Positions 6,821 through 32,882 of a stretch of 64,000 nt of DNA are shown piece after piece. The translations under genes and the position numbers were made by a program. Origin of the DNA: Rufibacter tibetensis (GTDB taxonomy: Bacteria; Bacteroidota; Bacteroidia; Cytophagales; Hymenobacteraceae); NCBI RefSeq assembly GCF_001310085.1, contig NZ_CP012643.1:5028001-5092000 (forward strand), given 5' to 3'. How positions within the stretch are numbered: the stretch's first letter is position 1; each line of letters begins with the position of its first letter. Below the pieces are notes generated by a model, which did not search any database, had not been told where the DNA came from, and saw only the letters and a program-made list of their open reading frames with translations.

Positions 6821-8410
6821 CTAGGTGGGATTATCCCAGATAGACTTTAAAGTATACGCCTTACTGTCCTGTAATTTTGTAGTACCCGTTGACACCAACT
6901 CTACTTTCGTAAATTCTTCTGTTGGGAAGAAGATATCCGTCATAACGGTTCTTCCGTCATTGGCGAAAACTTCAACGGACGCTACGTCTAACAGGAGATG
7001 CAGCCTCAGTTTACCGTTCTCTAAGGATAGGGGTGATGTATGTTTGCCAGAGAAAGTTTCCTTGAAGTCCATTTTCCCGGACTTGGTGCGGTCAATGTAA
7101 AGCACTTCACCAGCCACGGAGTAGCCAACATCCACATGCTCTCCCTTGGTGTTGGAAAATCTAAGGATCACCTCCTGCGCTTGGGAGACATCCAGGTTCA
7201 GGTCCAGTTCCTGGAGTGGGGAGGTAAGTTTGTAGCGGCTGCTCAGATCAAGTAAACTGGTCACTTCCTGGCCTTTGATGGAAGTTGAGCTAGTCCGAAG
7301 CTTCTGCAGCTCTTTGACCGGAACATTCGTCATTCTTACTCCCTCCCTGGTTTGTTGCAGCTTGAGTTCGCGGGGAACGGTCATGGCACTGCGCTAGGAG
7401 GTGGTGGGCACTTCATTTGCGTACAACCAATTGCTCATCCAACCCAGTAACAGGCGGCGTCCGTCTGATTCAGGAACATTGGCCCAGGTGACGCCGGCAT
7501 AGTTATCAGTGCCATGGTCAACCCACAAGGTAGTTTGAGGTGAATTGTCGTTCTTGAACGTTTTTCCGTCAAAGTCTCCAATGAAGTATTGGGTGGCAGA
7601 ACCTTTGTTGGGACCGCCTGGGTTGATACTCACCAACAGCACCCATTTCTCTTGCCCATTCACTTTAAGCGGAAATAAATCTGGGCATTCCCAAACCCCG
7701 CCATGAGCACCGGCAGTTTGCCCAAACTCGCTCAACTTAGTCCACTCCAAAAGATTTTTGGAGCCATAGAACTCAATATGATCCAGAACCGCTAAAGCCA
7801 TGATCCACTGCCCGCCTTTCTCGTTCCAGGAAACCTTGGGATCTCTAAAATCCCGTATTCCTGGATTCTTCAGGACCGGGTTTTTAGGGTACTTCTTCCA
7901 GGTCCTGCCGTTATCTACACTATAGGCAATCCCCTGCGTCTGGTAATCATTTCGTCCGGCTTTTTCCATTTCGGCATTGTGGTAGGTAAAGATGGCCACC
8001 ATAGGTGGGTTCTCTTTGGTACCCAGGCCTGAGGAATTGTTTATATCTACTACTGCGCTCCCAGAGAAAATGGTACCGAACTCATCTGGATAAAGGGCGA
8101 TGGGCAGGTGTTCCCAATACACCATGTCCTTACTGACTGCATGCCCCCAATGCATGGGTCCCCAGGTGGTACCTTCAGGATGATGCTGGTAAAACAAATG
8201 GTACTCCCCGTTATGATACACCATTCCGTTAGGATCATTCATCCACTTGGACGGTGGCGTAAAGTGAAATTGCGGCCGGTGCTGCTCGGTCACCTGACGG
8301 CTCACGGACCCTTGGACAGGTTTGGAAACGGAGTCTTTGCTAAGATTGCAACTCCAGGTGCCGGCCAGCAGAAGGGCACTTAAAAGGTGGAGGGCTTGTG
8401 TTCGTATCAT
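6821..8410 (-). pseudogene. GH32 fructan/sucrose hydrolase lipoprotein interrupted by one in-frame TAG
   Basis: Two pieces in the same frame (7394-8410, 338 residues; 6821-7384 from the next ATG) join into a 529-codon glycoside hydrolase family 32 gene. The only break is a TAG at 7394-7396. The first part has a lipobox (LLLAGTWSC, Cys21), the nucleophile motif WMNDPNG (Asp59), FRDPK (Asp190) and the acid/base motif WECPD (Glu241). The second part is the C-terminal beta-sandwich. The stop falls in EVPTTS-[stop]-RSAMTVPREL, where GH32 enzymes have a conserved Trp in the W-R-x-x-M/T motif, so TGG to TAG is the simplest explanation. An intact enzyme would hydrolyse levan, inulin or sucrose. It may be a recent pseudogene, a read error, or two-chain expression from the internal ATG. 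Confidence 0.88.
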
Positions 8411-17798: not shown

Positions 17799-19379
17799 CT
17801 ATTTTATTTTGGTCACTCTCCAGACCATGCCTGTCCCTCTGTCAAATTCCATCGGGAAATGTCCGTCTGCAATGCGCTTCAGGCTGGTGCGGTGTGATCC
17901 GAAATCAACGATGTACATAGCGCCGTCCGGCCCAAACTTTACATCATATGGTCTTTCTATTCCTTCGCCCAGCTGGCCTTGCTGAGAAGCGGGACCTATT
18001 TTCTCGTTTTGAATAAACGCATGCAAGGTGTTTTCACCGCTGCCGCTTGTCTCTACTCGGGCGATACGGTTGCCGGCAAACTTGTCCCGCATTGGGTTCG
18101 TAATCCACTGAAAATCGCCGTATTCAGGCACAAAAAGATGGTCGGCGTACTCTCCCCAGCTTTGAGGCGCTACATCTGGCTTTGAAGGAGAAGAGTTTAC
18201 TTCATGCAGCGCCAGGATCATTGATTTATCTGGCTGTTCCAACCCACTTGCCTCATGGTCAATTAGAAAGTGGAGTTCTTTGGCAACCCTTTCTTTACCT
18301 TTAAAGGTAGGTGGAATAGCCGAACTGCTTGGTTTGAACTTTGCATCAATAACAGGTTCAAAATTGGCCGCAAAATCAGGCCATCCGTACCAGGCACCTT
18401 GTCTCACGCGGTAAGTGCCATCATGATAATCGTTAATTGGTCTGCCGGCAGCATTGTCATAACCATTTACAGCTATGAACATTTCATTTTCCCTGTTCCA
18501 TGCAATACCTATGGCATTACGGAAGCCCCACGCATAAGGCATTACCGTAGCCTCGGCATTTTCCGGGTCAAACACCAGAATTGAACCGCCACACTTATTG
18601 CGGCCCTTAATTACCTGGCCTGGTTCGGTTGCTGTGCCAAAAGGCACAAAGGCACCAGTTAATACGGTCCCCTTGCCCCCTTCCCTAAAATCAGGCAGTT
18701 CAATGTTGTAACCTGTGAGTACAATATCTTTGGCCGTGGTAGGGTGCCCGTCAGGAGCCTTCAGCACAAACGGGATCATGTTTTCATCCATATACCCGGA
18801 GTTGCCGCCTATGCCCACACACACATACATTCTCCCGTCTCTCCCCACCCGTATGTCATTCGGCTGGTGGTCAGACTTGCTGTCAACAATTCCGCCCAGT
18901 ATCTGCGTTACTTCACCATCTAGTGTTACCCTAGACACCGCACCATGAAAATCCATCTCTCTATGTGTTATATAGAAAGCTCCGTTGTGCCAGGTCATGC
19001 CTGATATGGCAGGATAGATTTTGCCATCAAGATTGACTACTTCCCTGAACATGCCGTCGGCTTCCAGGCGCAGAATCCTTGCCGAGGCATCTTCCTCATC
19101 CAGGAAGGTTCCTCCAGCCTCGGCTATGTACATATTGCCCTGGTCATCCCAGGTAACTGAAGTGGGGTAGGTAAGGCCTCCAGCTATTCTTTCTATTTCA
19201 TACCCCTCTGGTAAACGAATCATTGGAAAGTTGGCCGAAGCCTTCAGCTTTTTACTATCAGCATCATGGCTTAACTCAGTGAATTTTTCCTTCATCATGT
19301 TAATGCCAACACTTACAGCCCCCGCTGCTGCAGAGGCCATAGTGCCGCGTCTGGTTTCTTGCTCTTCGTTCTGGTCCAT
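17799..19379 (-). CDS. sorbosone dehydrogenase/soluble glucose dehydrogenase-like beta-propeller protein
   Basis: A 526-residue protein with a weak N-terminal hydrophobic stretch (ASAAAGAVSVGINM) after ETRRG. This is vaguely twin-arginine-like, but export is unsure. From residue about 50 on it is a six-bladed propeller of the L-sorbosone dehydrogenase/GDH family: LPEGYEIERIAGGLTYPTSV, YIAEAGG, PNDIRVGRDGRMYVCVGIGG, YAWGFRNAIGIAWN, PEYGDFQWI and GERPYDVKFGPDGAMYIVDFG. Family members oxidise sugars with PQQ, but many homologues have unproven activity. It is transcribed alone and converges on the GH9-like gene. Confidence 0.75.
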   Translation of the reverse strand: MDQNEEQETRRGTMASAAAGAVSVGINMMKEKFTELSHDADSKKLKASANFPMIRLPEGYEIERIAGGLTYPTSVTWDDQGNMYIAEAGGTFLDEEDASARILRLEADGMFREVVNLDGKIYPAISGMTWHNGAFYITHREMDFHGAVSRVTLDGEVTQILGGIVDSKSDHQPNDIRVGRDGRMYVCVGIGGNSGYMDENMIPFVLKAPDGHPTTAKDIVLTGYNIELPDFREGGKGTVLTGAFVPFGTATEPGQVIKGRNKCGGSILVFDPENAEATVMPYAWGFRNAIGIAWNRENEMFIAVNGYDNAAGRPINDYHDGTYRVRQGAWYGWPDFAANFEPVIDAKFKPSSSAIPPTFKGKERVAKELHFLIDHEASGLEQPDKSMILALHEVNSSPSKPDVAPQSWGEYADHLFVPEYGDFQWITNPMRDKFAGNRIARVETSGSGENTLHAFIQNEKIGPASQQGQLGEGIERPYDVKFGPDGAMYIVDFGSHRTSLKRIADGHFPMEFDRGTGMVWRVTKIK

Positions 19380-20515
19380 AGTTTATATATCTTTAAGGTG
19401 AAAAGGTTATCAGGTATAAAAGGAGGAAGTTAATTGGACAGTTATTGCTGATTCACTACCAAGAAGAAACCCAAATTTATCTGAATGCCAAGGAATTACC
19501 TTTTAACTGATGAAATGCAAAAAGCAGGGAGTCTCTTTTTTACAAAACGACTGTTTTACTTTTTGGTTTTGAAATAGACGTTGCCCTAAAGCTTGTTAGA
19601 ATTATAATAAACCAAGTAAGAAGAGGCAGATTAAAGTTTTGCCTACTGATTTATTGCGTAGCATTAGAAATGAATGGAGAGAAAGAAGTACGGGGACTGT
19701 TTCTAGTACTACTGATTTGCAGCGCGGAAGGCTGGTTTCATCATTCTCTTAATTTATGTAGGACTGTTTTTTCGTACTTGTAGACAGGAAGCATTTTTTA
19801 TCCTGAAACGATACCGAAACCATGATGGCTCCTTTTATTTCCTGGGCAGTCTGCTCAGCCATTGTCTGGGCTTTTGACTTGTCATACTGTAACTGAAAAA
19901 TAAAGGAAAAGCGCCAATCCAATCTTCAAAAAAACTTATGATAATTTTTGTGAATTTATGTACTGATTGAGTTGCCTCTAAGCCAATATTGTCCATTATA
20001 CAACCAACGGGTGTATCAAAACAGCAGCTCTCCAACACCTGCACAATTTGTGAAAGGCGCCATTTACATGTTAGTTGCTCTGCATAGGCCAAGGAGCATA
20101 GGTTGATTTTCAAAAGTTCATGGTATATTATGAGCAGTTGCAGCATTAATTCTTCCTTGCTGGAAAATAATGGTATATACTTCCTTGTATATAATTCCTT
20201 TAAGCCAGCTACATGCTTTCCCTAAGTCAACCATGGAGGCTTTATGATACCCATTTCCCCTAAAAATCAGCTAGGTTTTGCCTATGATTGGCTCTTTGCT
20301 ACCCTTCATTCTAGCCATGGGTAAGAACACCTTTGATGAATGTTGACGATTATTTTTATTAGGTTTTAGAAGGAGGTGTGCTTAGGATAGGGCATGCACT
20401 GCTATATAAATCTCCATCAGCCAACCGACCTGCAGGGTGCCCGTAGAAACGGGTAACAAAGCAGTGCTATAGCATCATAGGTTTATCCTTTTAAATCTTT
20501 ACATACCAGTTGGTC
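19380..20515. other. 1.1-kb non-coding gap upstream of the ebo region
   Basis: The longest frame (19835-20146, minus, 103 codons) is cysteine-rich and low-complexity in appearance and matches no family I know. No tRNA or large repeat was seen; a short hairpin CCCGT-AGAA-ACGGG lies at 20440-20453. The promoter for the isochorismatase-type gene, and perhaps for the ebo genes, is expected here. Confidence 0.45.
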
Positions 20516-21559
20516 ATGAAACAAACATCCTCCCAAAGCTTCCATTTCAAGGCTACTTATTTGCCAAAGGCCGAAGACACGATTCCTTTTCCGCTGGACA
20601 AAACTGCTTTGTTAGTCATAGACCCTGTAAATGATTTTCTTTCGGAGGGTGGAGCGGTATATGAACTGACCAAAAACTCGCTTAAGCTTCAGGATACGAT
20701 AACGCATCTTAAGCAGGCAATTGAAGGGGCGCGCGCAAGTGGGATACCGGTGCTTTACGGACCAATGGCTTACACAGAAGATGATTACATTAATGAGAAG
20801 TTGCAAAAACGAAGCGGCATTAACCGCATCATGTTTGAAAAGAAGATGTTTCTGGCGGATAGCTGGGGGGCAGACTTTCACCCCGACTTGCAGCCGCAGC
20901 AGGGAGATATAATTTTGCTGCCACATAAAACCTGCAATGTTTTCAGAAGCGACCTGCCCGACCATCTGCAACGGTTGGGTATCACGCACCTGGTAATTGC
21001 GGGCATGGCTGCAAATCTATGCTGTGAGTCTACGGCCCGCCATGCCATAGAAGACGGCTATGATGTAACTATGCTAAAAGATGCCATGGGCGCAACCAGC
21101 ATTCCTGAATACGAAGCTGCAGTACATTTGAATTTGCCGTTAGTCTCCAATGCTGTGATTACAACAGAAGAGTTCCTGAGGGCCCTAAACACCATCACTG
21201 CTGCTCCTGAGCAAACCCTAAATGTACAGGAAGGAGATACCGTTAAAGGATCTGACAACGGCGATATAGGCACTGTGGAAAAGGTGGTGAAAGCCAGCGG
21301 TGGCACAGGGGGCTATATCCTGGTGCCACGGGGGCTGATCTTCAAGACAGACACCTATATACCAGTAGATGCTATTACCAAAAGAAGCGGTAATGCAGTG
21401 TTTATCAATGTACCTAAGATACTAGTGGGTGAAATGCCTTGGAAAGAGGCCCCTACACGAAAGGACTGGGAAGCCAAACAAGGACCTTCTGCCAAGGATG
21501 TGAAAAAGCTGTACCATTCCAGAACGGCGTCAGCCTTGGAGTTAAAGCCATTACCTTAG
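20516..21559 (+). CDS. isochorismatase-family cysteine hydrolase fused to a PRC-barrel-like domain
   Basis: A 347-residue protein from ATG 20516 (TTG 20510 is also in frame). Residues about 25-225 form an isochorismatase-like hydrolase with the Asp-Lys-Cys triad: LLVIDPVND (Asp36), LLPHKTCN (Lys138) and AANLCCESTARHA (Cys169). A C-terminal segment of about 120 residues (VQEGDTVKGSDNGDIGTVEK, GGYILVPRGLIFKTDTYIPV, then SAKDVKKLYHSR) looks like a PRC-barrel/DUF2171 module. The hydrolase fold cleaves vinyl ethers or C-N amide bonds; the substrate is not readable. The gene lies 112 bp upstream of eboA on the same strand, so a link to the ebo pathway is possible but unproven. Confidence 0.8.
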   Translation: MKQTSSQSFHFKATYLPKAEDTIPFPLDKTALLVIDPVNDFLSEGGAVYELTKNSLKLQDTITHLKQAIEGARASGIPVLYGPMAYTEDDYINEKLQKRSGINRIMFEKKMFLADSWGADFHPDLQPQQGDIILLPHKTCNVFRSDLPDHLQRLGITHLVIAGMAANLCCESTARHAIEDGYDVTMLKDAMGATSIPEYEAAVHLNLPLVSNAVITTEEFLRALNTITAAPEQTLNVQEGDTVKGSDNGDIGTVEKVVKASGGTGGYILVPRGLIFKTDTYIPVDAITKRSGNAVFINVPKILVGEMPWKEAPTRKDWEAKQGPSAKDVKKLYHSRTASALELKPLP

Positions 21560-21671
21560 TTTACTGGCAAAAAGGCAAACAGCTATGGTTAGGGCAGTTC
21601 AATAACTTGGAAAATTAACAGCCGTACTACCTCAAATGTACACGAAAAGTCAACCCCTACCTTAATTCCTT

Positions 21672-22571
21672 ATGCAAGTGTTTCAAGCTGATGTAGAAAA
21701 GTCCCGTGACTTTCTTTATGAATTATTCAAAAGAAACACTTCTGATGAAGCTACAGATTGGCTAAATGATAAGTTAGAAAAAGTTAAAGGTGCCAACAGT
21801 GCCAGAGAACTATACTGGGCCTTTAGCGCGGCTCCGCGTTTCGTAGGGAAAACTGTGTTACAGCTGCAAGAGAGCGAACTTAGTAAGGCTGACGTCCTGC
21901 GGCCAGGATTTAACCCTTCTAAATGGACCACCGACCAAACAGCCCGCACGCTTCTTCTACTTTCTATTCCGCACCAAGACCAGAACGAGTTCTTACATAA
22001 GCTAAACCAGCTCTTCAGCACGGCAGAGATGGGTGAGTTGGTGGCCTTGTATGCCAGCTTGCCACTACTTCCTTATCCTGGAGATTTTAAACTCAGAGCG
22101 GCTGAAGGCATCAGAACCAACATGGGTACGGTGTTTGAGGCTATTGCCCTGGACAACCCCTACCCCGCCGATTACCTGGACGAAGGGGCTTGGAACCAGC
22201 TGGTGTTGAAGACAGTGTTTGTAGGGAAGCCACTCTATCGCATTTACGGCCTGGAAATACGCAGCAATCCAACGCTTGCCCGCATCCTTTCGGATTACGC
22301 CCATGAACGCTGGGCAGCAGGGCGCACCGTAACCCCTGAACTTTGGCGGCCGGTGGGGCCATTCCTAAATGCGTTCCTGATGGAAGATATCAAGAGGGTA
22401 TTCGCGCACCCGGAACAGATTCAGCAGGAAGCTGCCGCTTTGGCCTGCTCCCAAAGCAACTTCATTCCAGCTAAAGAGCTGCTGGAAGCACACCCAGTCC
22501 TGAAAAACAAAATAGAAACCGGAGAGCTTAACTGGAATTACATCGGCCGCAAATCTCTGCCGGCAAACTAA
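21672..22571 (+). CDS. eboA: EboA family protein
   Basis: A 299-residue mostly helical protein with no signal peptide and no known catalytic motif. It starts MQVFQADVEKSRDFLYELFK and contains FSAAPRFVGK, NEFLHKLNQLFSTAEMGELV, LYASLPLLPYP and SNFIPAKELLEAHPVL, which I recognise as the EboA pattern. It is the first gene of an ebo cluster in the usual A-B-C order, and its stop lies 16 bp before eboB. Ebo proteins are linked to metabolite handling or export (scytonemin monomer in cyanobacteria); the exact role of EboA is unknown. Confidence comes mainly from position next to unmistakable B, C, D, E and F partners. Confidence 0.88.
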   Translation: MQVFQADVEKSRDFLYELFKRNTSDEATDWLNDKLEKVKGANSARELYWAFSAAPRFVGKTVLQLQESELSKADVLRPGFNPSKWTTDQTARTLLLLSIPHQDQNEFLHKLNQLFSTAEMGELVALYASLPLLPYPGDFKLRAAEGIRTNMGTVFEAIALDNPYPADYLDEGAWNQLVLKTVFVGKPLYRIYGLEIRSNPTLARILSDYAHERWAAGRTVTPELWRPVGPFLNAFLMEDIKRVFAHPEQIQQEAAALACSQSNFIPAKELLEAHPVLKNKIETGELNWNYIGRKSLPAN

Positions 22572-22587
22572 CCTAATCCTTTTCACC

Positions 22588-23529
22588 ATGGCACCAGAAA
22601 AAATGATGTTTATTGACCCGCATATTCACATGACTTCCCGGACAACAGACGACTACGCCCGGATGCAGGAAGCCGGCATTGTTGCCATTATTGAACCCTC
22701 TTTCTGGTTAGGGCAGCCGCGTACTGAAATTGGTTCCTTTAAAGACTACTTCAGCAGTTTGCTGGGCTGGGAACGGTTTCGGGCAAGTCAGTTCGGGATC
22801 AAACATTACTGCACCATAGGCCTTAATTCAAAAGAAGCCAACAACGAGGCCCTGGCCGAGCAGGTAATGGAGCTTTTGCCGCTTTTCGTCCTCAAAGAGG
22901 GCGTAGTGGGGGTTGGCGAAATTGGCTACGATGACCAGACAGCCGCCGAAGACAAATATTACCGGCTACAACTTGACCTGGCCAAAGAGGTAGGACTGCC
23001 GGTGCAGATTCATACCCCGCATCGCGATAAAAAGGCGGGCACCATCCGGAGCATGAAGGTTGCCATGGAACATGGAATCAAGCCCCATATGGTGATTGTA
23101 GACCATAATAACGAAGAAACCGTGAAAGACACCCTGGATGGAGGTTTCTGGGCCGCTTTCACCATTTACCCTAACTCTAAAATGGGTAACGAGCGCATGG
23201 TAGAGATTGTGAAGCAGTACGGCACAGAGCGGATTATTGTGAACAGCTCGGCAGACTGGGGGGTAAGTGACCCATTATCGGTTCCTAAGACAGCTTCGCT
23301 AATGCTGGAGCGAGGTATACCGGCAGAAGATGTCCGTATGGTATGCTACCAAAACGCCCTAGATGCATTCGGGCAGAGTGGCCAGATGAACGAATCTGAT
23401 TGGCTACAGCCGGCAAACGTTGACCAACGCGATAAATTCCAGGATAACTCAGTTCTTAGAGGGGGGCAGACTCCTGTAGTGGGAGAGTTTAAAACTAGAA
23501 ACGAACTGAAAGAAAACATTGTAAAGTAA
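22588..23529 (+). CDS. eboB: EboB, TatD-family metal-dependent hydrolase
   Basis: A 313-residue amidohydrolase-fold protein. MFIDPHIHMTSRTTDDYARM gives the HxH metal motif near residue 10. VVGVGEIGYDD supplies the Glu ligand, LPVQIHTPHRDK a His ligand, VIVDHNNEETV another His, and VNSSADWGVSDPLSVP the final Asp region. This is the TatD pattern, with a broad phosphoesterase/hydrolase capability, but the substrate in ebo systems is not known. Its TAA overlaps the ATG of eboC by one base (TAATG), which implies translational coupling. Confidence 0.9.
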   Translation: MAPEKMMFIDPHIHMTSRTTDDYARMQEAGIVAIIEPSFWLGQPRTEIGSFKDYFSSLLGWERFRASQFGIKHYCTIGLNSKEANNEALAEQVMELLPLFVLKEGVVGVGEIGYDDQTAAEDKYYRLQLDLAKEVGLPVQIHTPHRDKKAGTIRSMKVAMEHGIKPHMVIVDHNNEETVKDTLDGGFWAAFTIYPNSKMGNERMVEIVKQYGTERIIVNSSADWGVSDPLSVPKTASLMLERGIPAEDVRMVCYQNALDAFGQSGQMNESDWLQPANVDQRDKFQDNSVLRGGQTPVVGEFKTRNELKENIVK

Positions 23530-24437
23530 TGGAGATAGGTGCCTATATCAGATTGATGCGACCAGCTAATATTGTGACTGCCATAGCAGATATTCTGATG
23601 GGTTTTGCGGCTTCAGGTGCCTTTCTCTCTCTAACGGTTGGTGGATACAGCTCTTTCTCTTTTACAAGCCTGCTGCCACTCTTATGGCTGGTACTTTCTA
23701 CTATTGGCCTATATGGCGGCGGTGTGGTTTTTAATGATGTCTTTGATGCAGACCTGGACAGGCAGGAGCGGCCTGAAAGACCAATTCCCAGCGGCCAAGC
23801 CACTGTTTCAGGTGCCGCCGTTCTTGGGGCTTCTCTTTTAGCCGTAGGTATACTGGCAGCCTGGCAAGTGTCAGAACTTAGTGCCTTCATAGCCATTGCA
23901 ATTGCCGCCTGTGCCCTGCTGTACGACTGGAAAGGCAAGCACCATGCTCTACTTGGCCCTGTGAATATGGGAGCCTGCAGAGGGGGTAACTTGCTTTTAG
24001 GTATCAGTGCCATTCCAGCTGCCGTAGAGCAGTTCTGGTACTTGGCGTTAATTCCCATTGTGTATATAGCAGCTATAACCATGGTCAGCCGCGGCGAAGT
24101 ACATGGGGGCAGCAGCTCGGCTTTAAAGGGAGCTGTTTTACTGTATACCATGGTAATAGGCGGTATTATCAGCTTAACCCTATTACCACAATTTAACGTA
24201 TGGTATAGCCTGCCTTTCCTGCTGCTGTTTGCTTTCCTTATTTTTCCGCCACTTTTTAAAGCCATGCCAACCAAAGAACCTGCCTCTATTATGCGGGCAG
24301 TGAAAGCAGGCGTATTGGCCTTGATTGTGATGAATGCAAGCATGGCGGCAGGATTTGCCGGTTGGCAGTATGGGCTTCTGGTGCTTTTGCTCCTGCCTGT
24401 GTCACGCTACATTGCCAAGAACTTTGCCGTTACGTAA
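23529..24437 (+). CDS. eboC: EboC, UbiA-like prenyltransferase-family membrane protein
   Basis: A 302-residue polytopic membrane protein with about eight or nine hydrophobic helices. The UbiA first Asp-rich motif is present as NDVFDADLDRQERPERPIPSG (NDxxDxxxD, residues 69-77); the second is weaker, LLYDWKGKHH. UbiA enzymes attach prenyl chains to aromatic acceptors at the membrane, and EboC is the ebo branch. Here the prenyl donor and acceptor are unknown. Start is fixed by the 1-bp overlap with eboB. The following eboD is 695 bp away, unlike the tight spacing of A-B-C. Confidence 0.92.
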   Translation: MEIGAYIRLMRPANIVTAIADILMGFAASGAFLSLTVGGYSSFSFTSLLPLLWLVLSTIGLYGGGVVFNDVFDADLDRQERPERPIPSGQATVSGAAVLGASLLAVGILAAWQVSELSAFIAIAIAACALLYDWKGKHHALLGPVNMGACRGGNLLLGISAIPAAVEQFWYLALIPIVYIAAITMVSRGEVHGGSSSALKGAVLLYTMVIGGIISLTLLPQFNVWYSLPFLLLFAFLIFPPLFKAMPTKEPASIMRAVKAGVLALIVMNASMAAGFAGWQYGLLVLLLLPVSRYIAKNFAVT

Positions 24438-25132
24438 GTTCTAAAAAGCGACTTGTATATGGAAGCTGTTTAGAGCTTTTTAAAACTTGGGTTTATAAGC
24501 GACAAAAGTGTTTCGGCAGATTTTTGCTATGGCCATTTGCAGCAAAATGCTAAATTTAAACGTGCTCAAAACTCAACTTTAGTATTTTAGATATCGCACG
24601 CATTTCGTCCCCCTTTGAAGGCAGTGCCGTTAAGTTCTAAAATTTTCACTGGTTCAAGTTTTCAACTTGGACCTATAATGACTTGAAGTTTATAACTTCA
24701 GTGAGGCGCGAGCCCCAAAATATGTAACATTTACAAGGCAACCTTGACAAAAGCAGGCCATTGATGCAGAACTTAACAGCCCTGCCTTTAAAGGGGGATG
24801 AACGGGAATACCATGCAGGGCCAGGCAACTTCTTGGTACATTTACTTTTGAATGTCACCCTGAACTCAGGATATGTAAAAAAATTAAGAAGGCTTTATTT
24901 AAGCACTAAAAGCTCTTTTTTCTAGTTATAAAAAAGCTAAAGCCGAACTTAGAGAATTTAATTTTTTGCAGGCGGAATCTCCCGCTTTTGCACTCGTCTG
25001 CAATAAGGCTTCTGTTTTCAGGCTGTTTTCTAATAGTAGCCTGAAAACGCAAAACCAAGCGGAAACTTACGCCAGGTATGCCACTTGAAAATAGGATGTA
25101 AAAACCCCTAACAGGTTCATCAACGTATTTCT
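24438..25132. other. gap between eboC and eboD
   Basis: Besides the inverted-repeat element, this gap has a perfect 11-bp inverted repeat (arms 25014-25024 and 25038-25048, GTTTTCAGGCT) with no T-tract. It overlaps a recurrent 17-bp motif and lies 85 bp before eboD. No gene was seen; a separate promoter for eboD-E-F may lie here. Confidence 0.5.
24604..24802. mobile_element. 199-bp imperfect inverted-repeat (MITE-like or structured) element
   Basis: Arms 24604-24640 and 24766-24802 (37 bp, six mismatches by eye) are inverted copies starting TTC[GA]TCCCCCTTT. Inside are more small inverted repeats: 24651-24660/24664-24673 (one mismatch), TGAAGTT-TAT-AACTTCA at 24684-24700, TGTAA-CAT-TTACA and CAAGG-CAA-CCTTG. 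There is no transposase gene and no clear target duplication. It sits in the only wide gap of the ebo genes. Confidence 0.65.
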
Positions 25133-26323
25133 ATGAAACCAATCATACAAGAATTCAAAGTACCCTTTACCTACGGCGTCTATTTTACAGAAGGCATTTT
25201 CAAGAAGGAGAATAACCTTCTGGCCGATATCGTAAAATTAAAAGATAGCAGTGCTGCACCGACTAAGGTGCTTTTTGTATTGGATGAAGGGGTAGCAAAA
25301 GCACACCCAAAAATAGCTAATGATATAGCTGCTTATTCCGCCTATCATTCTGATACCCTAACTGCAGTTGCCGCTCCTGTGCTGATACCTGGCGGAGAAG
25401 AGGCTAAGAACAATCCGGCTTTGTTGAACCAAGTGCTGGAGGCTATCAACGATTTAGGGGTGTGCAGGCACTCTTACCTGGTGGCCATTGGTGGTGGTGC
25501 CGTGTTGGACATGGTAGGTTTTGCCGGCGCAACGGCACATAGGGGCATTCGCCTTATACGAATTCCAACCACTGTGCTTTCTCAGAACGATTCTGGCGTA
25601 GGCGTGAAGAACAGTATGAATGCCTTTGGTAAAAAGAACTTCCTGGGCACGTTTGCACCGCCTTTCGCTGTACTTAACGATAGCAATTTTCTGCTCACTT
25701 TAGAAGACCGCGACTGGCGCGGCGGCATAGCGGAGGCCGTGAAAGTGGCCCTGATTAAAGATGCCGCTTTTTATGAACAGATAAAGCAAGATGCACAAAA
25801 CTTGGCCGCCCGGAAAATGGCACCCATGCAGGAACTGATTTTCCGTTGTGCCGAGATGCACATGGAGCACATTGGCGGCGGCGATCCCTTTGAGTTTGGT
25901 TCATCAAGACCCCTGGACTTTGGGCACTGGGCGGCGCATAAGTTGGAGCAGATAACCAATTATGAGCTACGCCACGGAGAGGCTGTTGCCATTGGCCTTG
26001 CCTTGGACGTCACGTATTCTAAACTGGCCGGCATGTTGAGCGAAAAAGAGTGCGAAGATATTTTAAATCTTCTATCAGACCTGGGCTTTGACCTATATGT
26101 GCCGGAGCTGTCAAAAGGGTTAGAAACACCAGCCCAAAAGCTACACATTTTGCAGGGGTTGCAGGAGTTCAGGGAGCATCTGGGAGGAGAATTGACCATC
26201 ATGCTGCTTCAGAAAATAGGCGTTGGCGTGGAAGTGCACCACCTGGATGAGGCTTTGATTTTAGAAGCTGTGAACCAGTTGCAGCAATGGCAGACTGTCA
26301 AATTACTTGCCCCTACCGCGTAA
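25133..26323 (+). CDS. eboD: EboD, 3-dehydroquinate-synthase-like (sugar phosphate cyclase) enzyme
   Basis: A 396-residue NAD- and metal-dependent cyclase of the dehydroquinate synthase superfamily. Recognisable parts are the NAD-binding LVAIGGGAVLDMVGFAGATA, RIPTTVLSQNDSGVGVKNSM, FLGTFAPPFAVLND and the metal site in RGGIAEAVKVALIKD (Glu), RPLDFGHWAAHKLE (His) and LRHGEAVAIGLA (His). Homologues act on sedoheptulose 7-phosphate or other sugar phosphates. EboD forms its own branch and its substrate is unknown. A separate dehydroquinate synthase for the shikimate pathway is expected elsewhere, so a special role is likely. It is followed closely by eboE. Confidence 0.92.
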   Translation: MKPIIQEFKVPFTYGVYFTEGIFKKENNLLADIVKLKDSSAAPTKVLFVLDEGVAKAHPKIANDIAAYSAYHSDTLTAVAAPVLIPGGEEAKNNPALLNQVLEAINDLGVCRHSYLVAIGGGAVLDMVGFAGATAHRGIRLIRIPTTVLSQNDSGVGVKNSMNAFGKKNFLGTFAPPFAVLNDSNFLLTLEDRDWRGGIAEAVKVALIKDAAFYEQIKQDAQNLAARKMAPMQELIFRCAEMHMEHIGGGDPFEFGSSRPLDFGHWAAHKLEQITNYELRHGEAVAIGLALDVTYSKLAGMLSEKECEDILNLLSDLGFDLYVPELSKGLETPAQKLHILQGLQEFREHLGGELTIMLLQKIGVGVEVHHLDEALILEAVNQLQQWQTVKLLAPTA

Positions 26324-26351
26324 AGCCTTTACTACACTTATAATTTTGAAA

Positions 26352-27626
26352 ATGCGCGTAAACGACCACCTACATTTGTCTTATTGCACCAACATTCACC
26401 CTGGTGAAACCTGGGAAGATGTCTTTAGTAATTTACGAGAGTATTTGCCAACCCTTAAAAATAACCTGTCTCCTGACAAACCATTCGGTATTGGGCTGCG
26501 CCTTTCAGATCTGGCAAGCAGAGAATTAGCCCAACAACACATACTTGCAGACTTTCAGGAATGGCTGGAAAAGCATGGACTGTATGTGTACACCATGAAT
26601 GGTTTCCCGTACGGAGGATTTCATAACCAGGTAGTAAAAGACGGGGTACACAAACCAGACTGGACCACTAACGCCCGGTTGGAGTATACCAAACGGCTGG
26701 CTCATATCCTGGCAACGCTTCTGCCCGAAGGTTTGGAGGGCGGCATCTCCACCTCGCCGCTATCTTACAAACCCTGGCACCCTAGCCAAGCCGAAACGGA
26801 TACGGTTTTCGCCAGCGCCACCGCGAACCTACTGGAGCTGGTAGATTCCTTGCTTCATATCAGGAAACAGACCGGAAAGACTATCCACATAGACCTGGAG
26901 CCAGAGCCGGACGGATTGCTTGAGAACAGCGAAGAGATAATTAGATATTTCCAGAATTGGCTACTTCCGAAAGGAATTAAAAGGCTAAGTGAGGACCACA
27001 GCTATAGCCCAACCATGGCTAAGGAAACCATACTAAACCATATGCAGGTTTGTTATGATGTTTGCCACTTTGCGCTTGCCTTTGAACAGCCAGAAGAAGC
27101 ATTTGCGAAGCTTACTTCCGCAGGCATTAAAATTGGCAAAATACAGCTAAGCGCGGCCTTGAAAGTAAGATTGCCTTCTGATGCCACGGGTAGAGCAGCC
27201 CTAAAAGAAACGCTTTCCCCTTTCGCTGAGTCAACCTACCTGCACCAAGTGGTGGCAAAGAACCATGATGGTACCCTTACCCACTACACCGACCTTGATT
27301 TGGCTTTAGATGCCATACAGGAAACTAATGCCCAAGAGTGGAGAACGCACTTTCATGTGCCGCTTTTCACAGATACATATAACGGCTTGCAATCAACCCA
27401 AGAAGATATACAACAGGTTCTGGCGCTCCTGAACAAACAGCACATCACCCATCACCTGGAAGTGGAGACCTATACCTGGGAGGTTTTACCTGAAGGATTA
27501 AAAACAGATTTAGCCCACTCCATTCAGCGGGAGTTGGAGTGGGTCATTGAAACTATAACCGAAAACCAACATGCAAAAAACGGTGGTCATCAACGTGGTG
27601 GGGCTCACCCAATCGCTCATAGGTAA
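26352..27626 (+). CDS. eboE: EboE, xylose-isomerase-like TIM-barrel protein
   Basis: A 424-residue protein starting at ATG 26352 (28 bp after eboD; an in-frame TTG at 26307 would overlap eboD). It begins MRVNDHLHLSYCTNIHPGET and contains YTMNGFPYGGFHN, HIDLEPEPDGLLENSEEI, VCYDVCHFALAFEQPEEA and KIGKIQLSAALKV, the metal-ligand layout of xylose-isomerase-type TIM barrels (Glu, Asp/His, Gln). This is the metabolite traffic protein EboE family. The last 56 bases overlap the start of eboF in another frame, so the short C-terminal tail after EWVIETI may be dispensable. Confidence 0.92.
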   Translation: MRVNDHLHLSYCTNIHPGETWEDVFSNLREYLPTLKNNLSPDKPFGIGLRLSDLASRELAQQHILADFQEWLEKHGLYVYTMNGFPYGGFHNQVVKDGVHKPDWTTNARLEYTKRLAHILATLLPEGLEGGISTSPLSYKPWHPSQAETDTVFASATANLLELVDSLLHIRKQTGKTIHIDLEPEPDGLLENSEEIIRYFQNWLLPKGIKRLSEDHSYSPTMAKETILNHMQVCYDVCHFALAFEQPEEAFAKLTSAGIKIGKIQLSAALKVRLPSDATGRAALKETLSPFAESTYLHQVVAKNHDGTLTHYTDLDLALDAIQETNAQEWRTHFHVPLFTDTYNGLQSTQEDIQQVLALLNKQHITHHLEVETYTWEVLPEGLKTDLAHSIQRELEWVIETITENQHAKNGGHQRGGAHPIAHR

Positions 27627-28998
27627 GCATACACCCTTTTTAGCGGAGTGGTCTGCGCAAAAAGCAAAGGGGGCAGCTATCCGTCCGGTATTTCCTGCTG
27701 TGACCTGTACTGCCCAGGCTACTTATCTCACAGGTAAAACCCCGCAGGAGCATGGTATTGTAGGCAATGGCTGGTATTTTCATGAAGAGTGCGAAATAAA
27801 GTTCTGGAGACAGTCAAACAAACTGGTTCAGGCTGAAAAAGTGTGGGAAACCGCTAAAAAGCTTGACCCTTCTTTTACCTGCGCCAATATGTGCTGGTGG
27901 TACAACATGTACTCTTCCGCTGATTACTACCTTACCCCAAGACCACAGTATCTGGCCGATGGGCGTAAGCTACCCGACTGTTACACCCACCCCGCCAGTT
28001 TGCGCGATACGCTGCAGCAAAAATTAGGAACCTTTCCGCTGTTCCATTACTGGGGGCCTAAAACCTCTATCAAGTCAAGCAAGTGGATTGCCGATGCGTC
28101 TAAAATAACAGATGACCTGTATGACCCGACGCTTACGCTCATCTACCTGCCGCACCTGGATTACAACCTGCAACGCATGGGCTCAAGCGATACCCGCATT
28201 GCCACCGACCTGCAAGAAATTGATGCCGTATGTGCAGACCTGATTACCTACTATGAAGCCAGAGGTGCCAATATAATTGTACTGTCAGAATATGGTATTT
28301 CAGCAGTAAACCAACCTGTGCACCTGAACAGAGTGCTACGCCAGCATGGCTTTATTGCCTTAAGGGAAGAAAGAGGTTTGGAGCTTTTAGATGCAGGTGC
28401 CAGCGAAGCCTTTGCCGTGGCAGACCATCAGGTAGCCCATATCTATGTAAAGGACAGGAGCCGGGTGGAAGAAGTAAAAAGGATTATCGGACAGGTACCG
28501 GGTGTGGAAGAAGTATTGGCCGGCAACGAACGAAACAAATATAGCTTGGGCCATGACCGCTGCGGAGAACTGGTAGCAGTAGCCCGCAAAAACGCCTGGT
28601 TCACTTACTACTATTGGCTTGATGATAAAAAGGCCCCGGACTTTGCGCGAACGGTAGAGATACATAAAAAGCCTGGATATGACCCGGTAGAAATGTTCGC
28701 AGACCCCAAAATAAAGTTTCTATTGCCCTTGGTTGCCACTAAACTCCTCAAGAAGAAGCTAGGGTTCAGAACGTTGATGGATATCATTCCGCTAGACGCC
28801 ACGCTTGTGAAAGGTTCGCATGGGCGCATTCCTGATACGAAAGACGAATGGCCTGTCTTCATCACCAACAAGAGCGAATTGGCTCCTTCAGCAGATATTC
28901 CGGCCACGGAGGTCTACCAACTTATTCTCCACCACTTGGGGGCAAAGCAGCAGCAACATACGTTTGATATGCCTCAGATTAATCCTGTCCTGAACTAA
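27571..28998 (+). CDS. eboF: EboF, nucleotide pyrophosphatase/alkaline phosphatase superfamily enzyme
   Basis: A 475-residue protein with no signal peptide. VVINVVGLTQSLIG opens the alkaline phosphatase superfamily fold. The nucleophile lies in PVFPAVTCTAQATYLTGKTP. Metal-site motifs include LIYLPHLDYNLQRMG, VLSEYGISAVNQPVHLNRVL and VKGSHGRIPDTKDEWPVF. This matches type I phosphodiesterase/nucleotide pyrophosphatase-like proteins and is the sixth ebo gene. ATG 27571 lies inside eboE (56-bp overlap), a strong hint of coupled translation. The substrate is not known. Confidence 0.92.
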   Translation: MQKTVVINVVGLTQSLIGKHTPFLAEWSAQKAKGAAIRPVFPAVTCTAQATYLTGKTPQEHGIVGNGWYFHEECEIKFWRQSNKLVQAEKVWETAKKLDPSFTCANMCWWYNMYSSADYYLTPRPQYLADGRKLPDCYTHPASLRDTLQQKLGTFPLFHYWGPKTSIKSSKWIADASKITDDLYDPTLTLIYLPHLDYNLQRMGSSDTRIATDLQEIDAVCADLITYYEARGANIIVLSEYGISAVNQPVHLNRVLRQHGFIALREERGLELLDAGASEAFAVADHQVAHIYVKDRSRVEEVKRIIGQVPGVEEVLAGNERNKYSLGHDRCGELVAVARKNAWFTYYYWLDDKKAPDFARTVEIHKKPGYDPVEMFADPKIKFLLPLVATKLLKKKLGFRTLMDIIPLDATLVKGSHGRIPDTKDEWPVFITNKSELAPSADIPATEVYQLILHHLGAKQQQHTFDMPQINPVLN

Positions 28999-29041
28999 GA
29001 TTTAGCGAACTACAGCAAATTTTCATTTAAATGTTGATTAT

Positions 29042-29539
29042 ATGCCTTCTACTTCTTCTGCCATTCTAGCCACCCTTCAGCACCATGCATCAGCAATTAA
29101 TTGGCAACAGCTTCTTTCTGAGATAATTTCGTCTTTTGACTGCACTACTGGCACCATCCATTTCCTTGATAAGGATTCTGGAATGTTAAAATTGAAAGCA
29201 CAACAGGGTATACCCGAGTTCCTAGTGCCTAAATTATCAGAAATTCCAATTGGAAAAGGAATGGCGGGTATTGCTGCTGAACGGAAGGAGCCGGTCGAGA
29301 TGTGCAATTTACAGACGGACAATTCAGGTGTGGCCCGGCCCGCAGCAAAGGAAACGAAAGTGGAAGGCTCCATTGCAGTTCCAATGCTACTTAAGGGAAA
29401 TCTTTATGGCACGCTTGGAATTGCAAAGCCTGTTCCTTATGATTTTACGAAAGAAGAGCAAAACTCTTTGATGCAGATTGGGGAAGAAATGAGCCGCTAC
29501 ATCCAGGAACATGCTACGGCAGGTAGTAGTAGTGTCTGA
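29042..29539 (+). CDS. GAF-domain protein
   Basis: A 165-residue single-domain GAF protein: FDCTTGTIHFLDKDSGMLKL, IPIGKGMAGIAAERKEPVEM and VEGSIAVPMLLKGNLYGTLGIAKP are the conserved GAF strands. GAF domains bind small ligands (nucleotides, aromatics, haem) or sense redox state. There is no output domain, so it may act as a ligand carrier or a partner protein. It follows eboF after 43 bp on the same strand and may be part of that operon. No lipid or membrane anchor. Confidence 0.85.
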   Translation: MPSTSSAILATLQHHASAINWQQLLSEIISSFDCTTGTIHFLDKDSGMLKLKAQQGIPEFLVPKLSEIPIGKGMAGIAAERKEPVEMCNLQTDNSGVARPAAKETKVEGSIAVPMLLKGNLYGTLGIAKPVPYDFTKEEQNSLMQIGEEMSRYIQEHATAGSSSV

Positions 29540-29942: not shown

Positions 29943-31331
29943 TCATTCCTCTTTCTCCAGTTTCATGAAAAGGGTATTCAGCGATTCGGCATAGAGCGGA
30001 TGCGCAAACACCATGTCTTTTATTTGCCGCCAGGTAACATTCCCCACCATGGCCATTTGCAGCACCGACATGACTTCACCGCCCTCCTGCCCCACGATAG
30101 CCACTCCAAGTATCTTGCCGGTACCGGCATCTACAATTGCTTTCATCATGCCCCGGGTGTCGCCGATTTCTATGGCCCGGGCTACATGAGCCATCGGTAG
30201 GGTAGCAACTTTTATATTCAGGTTACTTTTCCGGGCTTCCTGTTCGGTTATACCTACCCTGCCTAACTGCGGATCGGTAAACATGGTATAGGGCACCATC
30301 CGGTTTTGGATGGAATCGTTTTTTCCCTCCACCAGGTTTTCATAAAGTATCAGGTAATCGTTGTAGGATATGTGGGTGAAGGCCGGTCCGCCCTTAACAT
30401 CACCGATGGCATAGATACCCGGCGCTGAGGTTTCCAGTCTATCATTTGCTTTTATGTAGCCGCGCTTATCCAGCTCCACCCCGGCGGCCGGTAAATTCAA
30501 GGTATCAGTATTGGGCGTACGGCCGGCTGAGACCAGGATATGGGAACCCGTAATTATTCTTTCTTCGTCACCTATTTTCAGGGTAACGTTAAGGTATTTC
30601 CCCTCCTTTTGCACCTTGGTGGTTTGCGCCCCGGTGATTACCTGAATACCTTCTGCCTCCAGAAATTTTAGTACTTCGGCGGCAATGTCTTCATCCTCCC
30701 GGGGTAGCAACCTTTGGTTATGGTCCAGTATCGTTACCTGGCTGCCAAAGCGGCGGTACATCTGGCCGAATTCCAGACCAATGTAGCCGCCCCCCAGAAT
30801 AATCAAACGTTCGGGTACTTCCTCCAGCTCTAGGAGGGTGGTAGAGGTAAGGTAATCTGTCTCTCTTAAACCTGCTACATCGGGAAGGGCAGCCCGGGTA
30901 CCAACGTCAATAAATATTTTATTGGCGGACAGGGTTTCTTCTCCACCATCTTTTAAAGTAACCCGCAAGGTTTTTCTATCTATAAAAGAGGCTTCACCTC
31001 TGATAAAGCACAGGTTTTCAGTTTCTTCCATTCCCTTTTCTGAACCTTGGCGAAAACTCTCCACTACTTTTCTTTTGCGCTCCAGTACGGCCGGCAGGTG
31101 TAATTTAAAATCGTTGACTTCTACTCCCCATTTACCTGCCTGAGCTACGGTATAAGCCACTTTGGCCGAAGCAATCATTGTTTTGGTGGGGGTGCAGCCC
31201 ACATTTACGCAGGTGCCGCCGGCATATTGCTTTTCTACCAGCGCAACGTTCCAGCCCTGCTGGGCTAATTTCATAGCCAGCGGCGTACCACCCTGTCCTG
31301 AACCGATAATAATGGCTTCATATTGTTTCAT
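29943..31331 (-). CDS. FAD-dependent pyridine nucleotide-disulfide oxidoreductase (mercuric-reductase-like)
   Basis: A 462-residue class I flavoprotein disulfide reductase. It has the FAD-binding IIIGSGQGGTPLA, the redox pair GGTCVNVGCTPTK (Cys41, Cys46), the NAD(P)-binding LIILGGGYIGLEFGQ, a second FAD motif PGIYAIGDVKGGPAF and the C-terminal dimer His in FAHPLYAESLN. The C-terminal vicinal Cys pair of true mercuric reductase is absent (ends MKLEKEE), so a general thiol/quinone/dehydrolipoyl-like reductase is more likely. It is last in a three-gene minus operon, 10 bp after the DUF427 gene. Confidence 0.88.
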   Translation of the reverse strand: MKQYEAIIIGSGQGGTPLAMKLAQQGWNVALVEKQYAGGTCVNVGCTPTKTMIASAKVAYTVAQAGKWGVEVNDFKLHLPAVLERKRKVVESFRQGSEKGMEETENLCFIRGEASFIDRKTLRVTLKDGGEETLSANKIFIDVGTRAALPDVAGLRETDYLTSTTLLELEEVPERLIILGGGYIGLEFGQMYRRFGSQVTILDHNQRLLPREDEDIAAEVLKFLEAEGIQVITGAQTTKVQKEGKYLNVTLKIGDEERIITGSHILVSAGRTPNTDTLNLPAAGVELDKRGYIKANDRLETSAPGIYAIGDVKGGPAFTHISYNDYLILYENLVEGKNDSIQNRMVPYTMFTDPQLGRVGITEQEARKSNLNIKVATLPMAHVARAIEIGDTRGMMKAIVDAGTGKILGVAIVGQEGGEVMSVLQMAMVGNVTWRQIKDMVFAHPLYAESLNTLFMKLEKEE

Positions 31332-31341
31332 CTGAATTATT

Positions 31342-31623
31342 TTACTGTATTACCTCTACGCCTTTCCAGAAGGCCACCCTGTTTTTAATTTGTTTTACGG
31401 CATCCTTTGGTTCGGGGTAATACCAGGCAGCATCCTTATTTCTTTCGCCATTTACTTGCAGCGTGTAATAAGATGCCAGTCCCTTCCAGGGGCAGGTGGT
31501 ATGGGTATCGGAGGGTTGGAGGAAGTCTTTTTTTACTGCTTCTAGGGGGAAGTATTGGTTGCCTTCCACCACAACGGTATCATTGCTTTCGGCAATTACC
31601 TGATTATTCCAAATAGCTTTCAT
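31342..31623 (-). CDS. DUF427 family protein
   Basis: A 93-residue protein: MKAIWNNQVIAESNDTVVVE, YFPLEAVKKDFL, THTTCPWKGLASYYTL and AAWYYPEPKDAVKQIKNRVAF are the DUF427 core, a small beta-fold family of unknown function. TTCPWKG is the most conserved part. It lies 23 bp downstream of the OsmC-hydrolase gene and 10 bp before the flavoprotein gene, so it is co-transcribed with redox genes. Confidence 0.92.
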   Translation of the reverse strand: MKAIWNNQVIAESNDTVVVEGNQYFPLEAVKKDFLQPSDTHTTCPWKGLASYYTLQVNGERNKDAAWYYPEPKDAVKQIKNRVAFWKGVEVIQ

Positions 31624-31646
31624 GAATTTATTCTGTTAGGTTTAGT

Positions 31647-32882
31647 TTAATCAGGAGTGCCTGAATTTTTAGGGTCAGGCAAAAGAGTGGTACTTATTTT
31701 TACGGGTTTGTGCAGCGTTTTGTGCACGGGGCACCTTTCCGCTATTTCCAGAAGCCGCTGCCGCTGCTCCTTAGTCAGGTTGCCTTCCAGCTCTATTTCC
31801 CGCCATATATGGTCCAGGAAAGATTTCTTTTCGGGGCTTTCGGAATCTACCTCATGCACCTTTTCGTGGTGCAGGTGCACGAGAACATTTTGCAGGGGCC
31901 ACTTTTTGCGGTCAGCATACAGGCGCAGGGTCATGGCCGTGCAGGCGCCCAGCCCGGCAGTCAGCAGGTCATAGGGCGTTGGCCCCAGGTTAAGTCCCCC
32001 TACCGATTCCGGCTCATCGGCCATAAAGGAATGTCCGCCCGCCATTACCTCAGTGGTCAGGGCATCCGGGCCAATGCGGACCGCCACGCGTTTGCGGGCG
32101 TTAATGGGTTCCGCTTCGGGCAGCTGCAGGTAGCGTTTTACCCAGGAGCCAATGACCTCCCCCGTGTAGAAAGAGTCTTCAGGGTTACTGAGCAAATGGT
32201 CTGCCCCATCTAACGAGATGAAACTTTTAGGGTGTCGGGCCGCTTGGTAGATGTCTGCGGCATTGTCAATGGAAACCACAACATCCTGGGGAGCGTGCAG
32301 CACCAGCAAAGCCTTACCCAAGGTGTTTATGGCCAGTTTTGGGTTAAACTCGCTTAAATCATCCAGAAATTCTTTTTTTATGGGAAAAGGCCTTCCTCCT
32401 ATGTTTACCATGGCCACTCCTTCCCGTTCAATGGTTTCCAGGTCATCATGCAACAGATGGCGGACGTGGGCCGGGTGGCAGGGCGCCCCTATGGTGACCA
32501 GGGCCTTTACCGTGGGTAATGAATTGGCTGCCATGAGCACAGCCGCCCCGCCCAAGGAGTGGCCAATGGCCAGGACGGGGGCTTTGTAATGCTGTTCCAG
32601 AAAATGGGCGGCACTGACCAAATCGGACACATCAGAAGAAAACCCAGCCTGTTCAAAATTTCCATCACTCTGCCCCAGCCCGGTAAAATCAAACCGGAGC
32701 ACCGCAATACCCTGCAAACTCAAAGCCCTGGAAATATTACGGATAGCGGTGAGGTTTTTAGAGCAGGTAAAGCAATGCGCGAACAAGGCGATAGAATGGG
32801 GACGGCCATCAACCGGCATTTCCACCCTGCCAGCTAACATTTGGCCTTTTGAGTTGGGAAACGTAACAGGTATGCTTTTCAT
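31647..32882 (-). CDS. bifunctional alpha/beta hydrolase-OsmC protein
   Basis: A 411-residue fusion. Residues 1-255 are an alpha/beta hydrolase with nucleophile elbow GHSLGG (Ser109), probable Asp200 (LHAPQDVV) and His229 (DGADHLL). Residues 265-411 are an OsmC/Ohr-type domain with Cys314 (GLGACTAMTLRLYADRK) and a second Cys in AERCPVHKTL, the pair that reduces organic peroxides. Such fusions are common in Bacteroidota and proteobacteria. The natural ester or peroxide is unknown. It is first in the minus operon with DUF427 and a disulfide reductase, which could supply reducing power. Confidence 0.92.
   Translation of the reverse strand: MKSIPVTFPNSKGQMLAGRVEMPVDGRPHSIALFAHCFTCSKNLTAIRNISRALSLQGIAVLRFDFTGLGQSDGNFEQAGFSSDVSDLVSAAHFLEQHYKAPVLAIGHSLGGAAVLMAANSLPTVKALVTIGAPCHPAHVRHLLHDDLETIEREGVAMVNIGGRPFPIKKEFLDDLSEFNPKLAINTLGKALLVLHAPQDVVVSIDNAADIYQAARHPKSFISLDGADHLLSNPEDSFYTGEVIGSWVKRYLQLPEAEPINARKRVAVRIGPDALTTEVMAGGHSFMADEPESVGGLNLGPTPYDLLTAGLGACTAMTLRLYADRKKWPLQNVLVHLHHEKVHEVDSESPEKKSFLDHIWREIELEGNLTKEQRQRLLEIAERCPVHKTLHKPVKISTTLLPDPKNSGTPD

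Follow-up and report, generated by a model that had tools for sequence, protein, structure and literature searches.

An ABCDEF-type ebo operon in Rufibacter tibetensis and TMEM220 as a candidate membrane partner of Ebo in Bacteroidota

Introduction

The ebo gene cluster is widespread and has no known product. Its ABCDEF form, the usual arrangement in Bacteroidota and Cyanobacteria, has six genes that follow one another in this order on one strand (Yurchenko et al., 2016, PMC5133447). Homologous genes belong to the scytonemin locus of Nostoc punctiforme, where the ebo mutants that were tested, a set that does not include eboD, keep the scytonemin monomer in the cytoplasm, and where a function in metabolite traffic to the periplasm was proposed (Klicki et al., 2018, PMC6282210). 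In work on the UbiA-297 prenyltransferase, EboC homologues of Maribacter, Zobellia and Algoriphagus were reported to farnesylate 8-hydroxyquinoline-2-carboxylic acid in vitro (Amiri Moghaddam et al., 2022, PMC9235831). Here we analyze the ebo genes of Rufibacter tibetensis within a stretch of 64,000 nucleotides (contig NZ_CP012643.1, positions 5,028,001 to 5,092,000), referred to as the window, together with ebo loci of other genomes.

An initial annotation of the window had recognized all six ebo genes and had put forward the two genes flanking them on the same strand, encoding an isochorismatase-like hydrolase and a GAF-domain protein, as possible new members of the cluster. Telling true partners from chance neighbors guides the choice of gene deletions. 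The comparison presented here closes the lead on the hydrolase and narrows that on the GAF protein; the point worth following is a link between ebo and the TMEM220 family of small membrane proteins.

Results and discussion

The window carries a canonical ABCDEF-type ebo operon

The locus is a canonical ABCDEF-type ebo operon in a Rufibacter: the coordinates and family models place eboA to eboF in order on the forward strand (Table 1), as the initial annotation had it. The distances given there for the flanking genes are likewise confirmed, with 112 bp between the hydrolase gene and eboA and 43 bp between eboF and the GAF gene, all on one strand. EboA, EboC and EboE are named by curated models, while EboB, EboD and EboF are assigned by their parent Pfam families. 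Against the stricter subfamily model NF035937, EboA reaches 303 bits, 17 short of the cut-off of 320. The ATG start of eboE sits within a longer TTG frame opening at 26307, and eboE and eboF overlap by 56 bp, the same overlap being seen in many relatives.

Table 1. Features of the ebo region and its surroundings in the window, with the evidence for each assignment.
Feature	Position	Strand	Evidence or remark
Beta-propeller-type protein, DUF7133	17799-19379	-	ScyD/ScyE match 63.7 bits, cut-off 80
Decayed TetR-type regulator, pieces in three frames	19755-20318	-	tblastn with longer relatives
Hydrolase, isochorismatase-like, DUF2171/PRC-like C-terminal part	20516-21559	+	PF00857, 114 bits
eboA	21672-22571	+	NF035938 domain model, 182 bits, cut-off 50
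eboB, TatD-like hydrolase	22588-23529	+	PF01026, 63 bits
eboC, UbiA-type intramembrane prenyltransferase	23529-24437	+	NF035940, 415 bits, cut-off 250
eboC-eboD stretch, 695 bp	24438-25132	.	inserted repeat element
eboD, sugar phosphate cyclase family	25133-26323	+	parent Pfam family match; 220 bits against AroB model
eboE, TIM-barrel protein	26352-27626	+	NF035939, 516 bits, cut-off 250
eboF, type I phosphodiesterase/pyrophosphatase family	27571-28998	+	PF01663, 214 bits
GAF-domain protein	29042-29539	+	PF13185, 47 bits

The operon shares its six genes, their order and their strand with the type described by Yurchenko et al., and differs from it in a repeat that splits eboC from eboD, in the GAF gene directly behind eboF and in its probable placement by horizontal transfer. 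At the other loci of the family in which both genes are called, the distance between eboC and eboD ranges from -83 to 271 bp. In the window, 35-bp inverted-repeat arms (24604-24638 and 24768-24802) enclose a dispersed repeat of about 75 bp, of which the host genome contains at least 36 further copies. A scan covering 29 of the 46 window open reading frames (ORFs) of at least 150 amino acids, with the other 17 outside it, and one shorter ORF recognized none of the scy biosynthetic genes, in contrast to the N. punctiforme locus. It agrees with the earlier remark that aromatic or indole biosynthetic genes are not visible here, and the description of the product in this Bacteroidota host as unknown also holds.

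The predicted competence of the Ebo proteins was assessed on motif alignments whose rows take in the window proteins and count three genomes twice. EboC, by homology a predicted prenyltransferase like UbiA-297, retains the NDxxDxxxD motif in 136 of 136 rows; candidate metal-binding His, Asp and Glu residues of EboB are invariant (147/147), and in EboF the T of the first motif and the SEY of the second are kept in all 143 rows. EboD displays the invariant segment RPLDFGHW..H in 137 of 137 rows, in place of which 3-dehydroquinate (DHQ) synthases have LN.GHT.GHA. The host carries a separate AroB elsewhere in its genome, which scores 334 bits against the TIGR01357 cut-off of 305, a value that EboD does not reach (Table 1); EboD does match NF004852, an NCBIfam model named 3-dehydroquinate synthase, over its cut-off. 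Because the host has this separate AroB and EboD a motif of its own, EboD is unlikely to be the housekeeping DHQ synthase. The family was also judged distinct from the housekeeping enzyme by Yurchenko et al., who inferred sedoheptulose 7-phosphate as the EboD substrate (PMC5133447).

EboA is all-alpha in a high-confidence AlphaFold model, with a predicted local distance difference test score (pLDDT) of 95. No solved relative was found by sequence at E ≤ 1, and a fold search of the PDB gave a best E of 0.14 and nothing at E ≤ 0.001. The protein has many invariant charged residues.

The operon was probably gained by horizontal transfer

To place the operon within the host's family, ebo presence was scored by EboE in a sample of 150 genomes. 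The genes occur in 48 of them, including two of the 16 Rufibacter genomes, one being the host. A gyrB tree of 10 of these 16 and all 50 Pontibacter genomes splits the two genera at 100/100. In the tree of concatenated Ebo proteins (41 rows), the host and the second Rufibacter (G057) fall into a six-row clade together with four Pontibacter genomes (G066, G082, G102 and G126). The approximately unbiased (AU) test, applied with a simpler protein model and with groups chosen after the first tree was known, rejected Pontibacter as one clade on the Ebo proteins (p 0.0004, 40 rows) and also rejected the two Rufibacter held together (p 0.006, 40 rows). In the gyrB tree, G102 falls in a Pontibacter clade otherwise lacking ebo. 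Because the ebo tree, which places the host among Pontibacter, conflicts with gyrB and only two of 16 Rufibacter carry ebo, the simplest reading is that this Rufibacter probably gained its ebo genes by horizontal transfer.

TMEM220 recurs beside ebo and co-occurs with it in Bacteroidota

When all ebo neighbors were clustered over 110 loci, one family was far ahead of the others: a membrane protein of about 125 amino acids found within 2.5 kb of ebo at 35 loci, the next family reaching 12 loci within 5 kb. All eight cluster members that were scanned belong to PF15071 (TMEM220), with 73-91 bits at a cut-off of 27. A profile built from the cluster finds the family at 47 of 157 ebo loci (L244, L243, L230, L128 and L211 among them), and not in the window. 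Judged by distances between stop-to-stop frames and BLAST edges, TMEM220 is separated from an ebo gene by about 300 bp or less at 37 of the 157 loci and by more at 10. The close copies occur in five arrangements, namely upstream of eboA on the same strand (17) or the opposite one (2), behind eboF on the same strand (11) or the opposite one (6), and before eboE (1). On a tree of 144 loci, adjacency cannot be explained with fewer than 11 changes, counting both gains and losses, compared with 34-37 in 20 shuffles.

Co-occurrence was followed in 395 Bacteroidota genomes by comparing by hand the ebo and TMEM220 lists, which apparently stem from the same draw. TMEM220 is present in 24 of 31 genomes with ebo and in 26 of 364 genomes without it, one of the 26 falling under the Pfam cut-off (p 1e-18); counted by genus, the figures are 16 of 19 versus 15 of 152 (p 2e-11), and after dropping six genomes with linked copies they are 18 of 25 versus 26 of 364 (p 7e-14), all three values ignoring relatedness. 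Adjacency and co-occurrence both mark TMEM220 as a likely partner of ebo in Bacteroidota, and by this association it is a strong candidate for an unrecognized membrane component of the Bacteroidota Ebo system.

Several observations weigh against this assignment. Seven of the 31 ebo-bearing genomes lack TMEM220, and the nine cyanobacterial loci are all without it near ebo. The family also occurs at five of 30 retrieved loci of the beta-propeller type (DUF7133-like), and all five of these family genomes, four of them Rufibacter, are without ebo. In the host itself, TMEM220 lies outside the window, at 3.32 Mb (G000:C1:3320585-3320866), so that it is neither linked to ebo there nor absent among Rufibacter where ebo is absent. 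Given this separation and its presence in Rufibacter genomes without ebo, TMEM220 shows no special tie to ebo in this host. The host copy adjoins a paralogue of the window's beta-propeller gene, 32-35% identical to it (G000:C1:3320585-3322475, L410), and the same pairing is seen at L197, L204, L205, L206, L207 and L097; five of these seven genomes have no ebo.

The ebo papers PMC5133447, PMC6282210 and PMC6092422 do not name TMEM220 in their main texts, and a library search of main texts listed no paper on a function of TMEM220 in bacteria. The human protein is Golgi-resident, and its knock-down is reported to disturb the Golgi and glycoprotein secretion (PMC6979480). The bacterial relative is likewise a small membrane protein of PF15071, distinguished by its recurrence as an ebo neighbor in Bacteroidota. 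The link to ebo is found in several Bacteroidota families, with Pedobacter as one example in which TMEM220 heads the operon, and it makes the question of membrane transport by Ebo directly testable in cultured strains.

The GAF gene is a probable accessory of ebo in a small lineage

To judge the flanking genes, the neighborhood comparison among relatives suggested by the initial annotation was carried out on two sets of ebo loci from other genomes (76 and 80, hence 156, with three genomes in both), each locus covering up to about 20 kb. The GAF gene passes this comparison in part. It recurs near ebo at four of the 76 loci, from three genera, and at one of the 80, which belongs to the same genome as one of the four. 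In the host (G000), G057, G066 and G082 it sits 43-53 bp behind eboF, and in G041, of genus group g6, one inserted beta-propeller gene separates it from eboF. At an orthologue threshold of E ≤ 1e-20, the gene is present in 22 of the 150 family genomes, all 22 of which are among the 48 with ebo; within Pontibacter it occurs in 19 of 34 genomes with ebo versus none of 16 without, and within Rufibacter in both genomes with ebo versus none of 14.

A functional tie is weakened by several points. The gene is unlinked to ebo in 17 of the 22 genomes and missing from G102 and G126, whose ebo genes are close relatives of the host's, and the AU test rejected a single group made up of the four GAF-linked rows in the main ebo clade (p 0.0005). 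Among eight independent pairs on the gyrB tree about five change in the same way and none in the opposite way, with a median p of 0.06 (0.13 if pairs are chosen on GAF), and several of the informative pairs involve GAF copies physically linked to ebo. Much of the GAF presence tracks gyrB clades or physical linkage, so its co-occurrence with ebo was not accepted as proof of function.

The GAF gene, the TetR-type regulator, the beta-propeller gene and the hydrolase gene might be unrelated accessories found in the same mobile regions as ebo, with GAF linked to ebo by hitch-hiking. GAF copies in many contexts, the partial congruence of their presence with gyrB clades, and TetR relatives that in other genomes adjoin the beta-propeller gene or follow GAF all fit such an explanation, as does the finding that the six genomes with a close orthologue of the beta-propeller gene all have both ebo and GAF, which a shared accessory set would give. 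It is harder to reconcile with the complete absence of GAF-bearing genomes without ebo among the 150, with the linkage of GAF at two places of the ebo tree that lie apart, and with the position of the G041 GAF outside the other linked copies, which has weak support. We consider hitch-hiking a real contender, though one that falls short of an even chance.

The ebo genes of G041 cluster within its genus group, at a distance from the other GAF-linked rows, and its GAF groups, again with weak support, with unlinked Pontibacter copies. The simplest reading of these trees would be two separate attachments of GAF to ebo, though a single ancestral linkage followed by many losses may also account for them. 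Taken together, the GAF gene is best described from these comparisons as an accessory of ebo in a small lineage and not as a general ebo gene, because it lies near ebo at few loci and shared ancestry explains part of the co-occurrence. The proposal of new members in the initial annotation survives for GAF to this lineage-limited extent. Within that lineage, its product may act as a cytosolic small-molecule sensor for the ebo pathway.

A prenylated carrier or cofactor is the favored product

The Ebo proteins can be arranged into a putative pathway. In it, EboD would form a cyclitol-like ring from a sugar phosphate, intermediates would be trimmed or dephosphorylated by EboB, EboE and EboF, and EboC would attach a prenyl chain in the membrane, with EboA as a helical scaffold. 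The product would be a small prenylated compound, a carrier or cofactor for taking another metabolite to the periplasm, in line with the carrier model proposed by Klicki et al. We favor, at somewhat better than an even chance, a horizontally gained ABCDEF ebo operon whose product serves metabolite traffic as such a carrier or cofactor.

Three points speak against a carrier or cofactor. A lipid-linked scytonemin intermediate was not found by Klicki et al. (PMC6282210). The acceptors in the EboC assays were picked by the authors (PMC9235831), so that the role of EboC may just be to add a prenyl group to a secondary metabolite. Our searches turned up no data on metabolites, expression or mutants for the ebo genes of any Bacteroidota.

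Alternatively, the cluster might make a finished secondary metabolite, either an isoprenoid-cyclitol or a prenylated aromatic compound, the export defect in Nostoc being indirect. An isoprenoid-cyclitol product was argued for by Yurchenko et al. (PMC5133447), and the in vitro farnesylation of quinolines by Bacteroidota EboC homologues (PMC9235831) is a second point in favor of a finished metabolite. In each of the Nostoc ebo mutants tested, eboD being outside the set, the same scytonemin monomer builds up in the cytoplasm (PMC6282210). This does not favor a finished metabolite, and neither does the neighborhood of ebo, where within 5 kb every family apart from TMEM220 is limited to 12 of 110 loci at most. 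A finished metabolite appears unlikely to us, if well short of negligible, and a prenylated carrier or cofactor is preferred over it.

More speculatively, TMEM220 might cooperate with EboC to bring the prenylated carrier, or what it carries, across the inner membrane, with GAF as a dedicated product sensor in the Rufibacter/Pontibacter variant. We hold this extension to be doubtful; if it were true, Ebo would allow the molecular function of human TMEM220 to be modeled in bacteria.

The upstream hydrolase looks like a chance neighbor

The hydrolase gene adjoins ebo at none of the 156 other loci (0/76 and 0/80). Full-length relatives with at least 60% identity occur in seven of the 150 family genomes, the host included with two copies, and three of the seven (G100, G129 and G131) carry no ebo; pieces of the gene are found in G041, about 50 kb from the ebo genes of that genome. 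Because it is never beside ebo at the 156 loci and is present in three genomes without ebo, the hydrolase is rejected as an ebo gene, and on this distribution it looks like a chance neighbor with no part in the ebo system. That the hydrolase and the GAF protein should both be general ebo members, as their common strand, the short gaps in the window and the recurrence of GAF near ebo in four other genomes could suggest, is highly improbable in view of this distribution and of a GAF gene present in 22 of 150 family genomes and near ebo at one of 80 loci.

Of the isochorismatase-PRC fusion named in the initial annotation, the isochorismatase half stands (Table 1), and the PRC half is weakly supported: the C-terminal part, predicted to be rich in beta-strands, matches DUF2171 at E 0.005 in the window protein and PRC at E 0.034 in one of two relatives, all under the Pfam cut-offs. 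With a mean pLDDT of 59, the AlphaFold model is too poor to be used in a fold search. Asp36, Lys138 and Cys170, which we take to be catalytic, are invariant across eight homologues within the isochorismatase superfamily. An identity as RutB or biuret hydrolase was rejected, the scores of 71 of 378 and 62.5 of 370 bits lying under the curated cut-offs.

Other neighbors and signals in the window

The beta-propeller-type protein encoded upstream of the hydrolase gene was considered as a counterpart of ScyE and rejected, as its match stays under the family cut-off and its gene lies on the strand opposite to ebo. Inspection by eye, without a predictor, revealed no obvious signal peptide. Close orthologues (at least 85% identical) are present in six of the 150 genomes, counting the host and fragments in G013. 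Besides the host, the gene lies beside ebo in G041 only, where the orthologue between eboF and GAF is 85% identical. A relative of the decayed TetR-type regulator, at L086, belongs to PF00440; full-length relatives stand directly behind ebo-GAF at L086 and upstream of the beta-propeller gene at L314, and at L313 a shorter TetR-family ORF lies upstream of the beta-propeller gene. Judged from the locus list only, other families recurring near ebo appear to reflect a gene order common to one group, for example Flavobacteriaceae or cyanobacteria.

A Bacteroidota-type promoter pattern has six matches in the 64 kb versus 2.4 expected. The sole match inside the locus overlaps the eboE start, and there is none between the hydrolase gene and eboA. 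Scans for sigma-70 promoters and for terminators stayed at chance level.

Further from the operon, two adjacent reverse-strand ORFs separated by 9 bp encode a family 32 glycoside hydrolase in parts, the C-terminal one at 6821-7384 and the N-terminal one at 7394-8410, possibly as a split gene. Behind the GAF gene, a pyridine-nucleotide-disulphide oxidoreductase (29943-31331) lies near a DUF427 gene, which on the reverse strand (31342-32882) stands beside a gene for an alpha/beta-hydrolase fused to OsmC.

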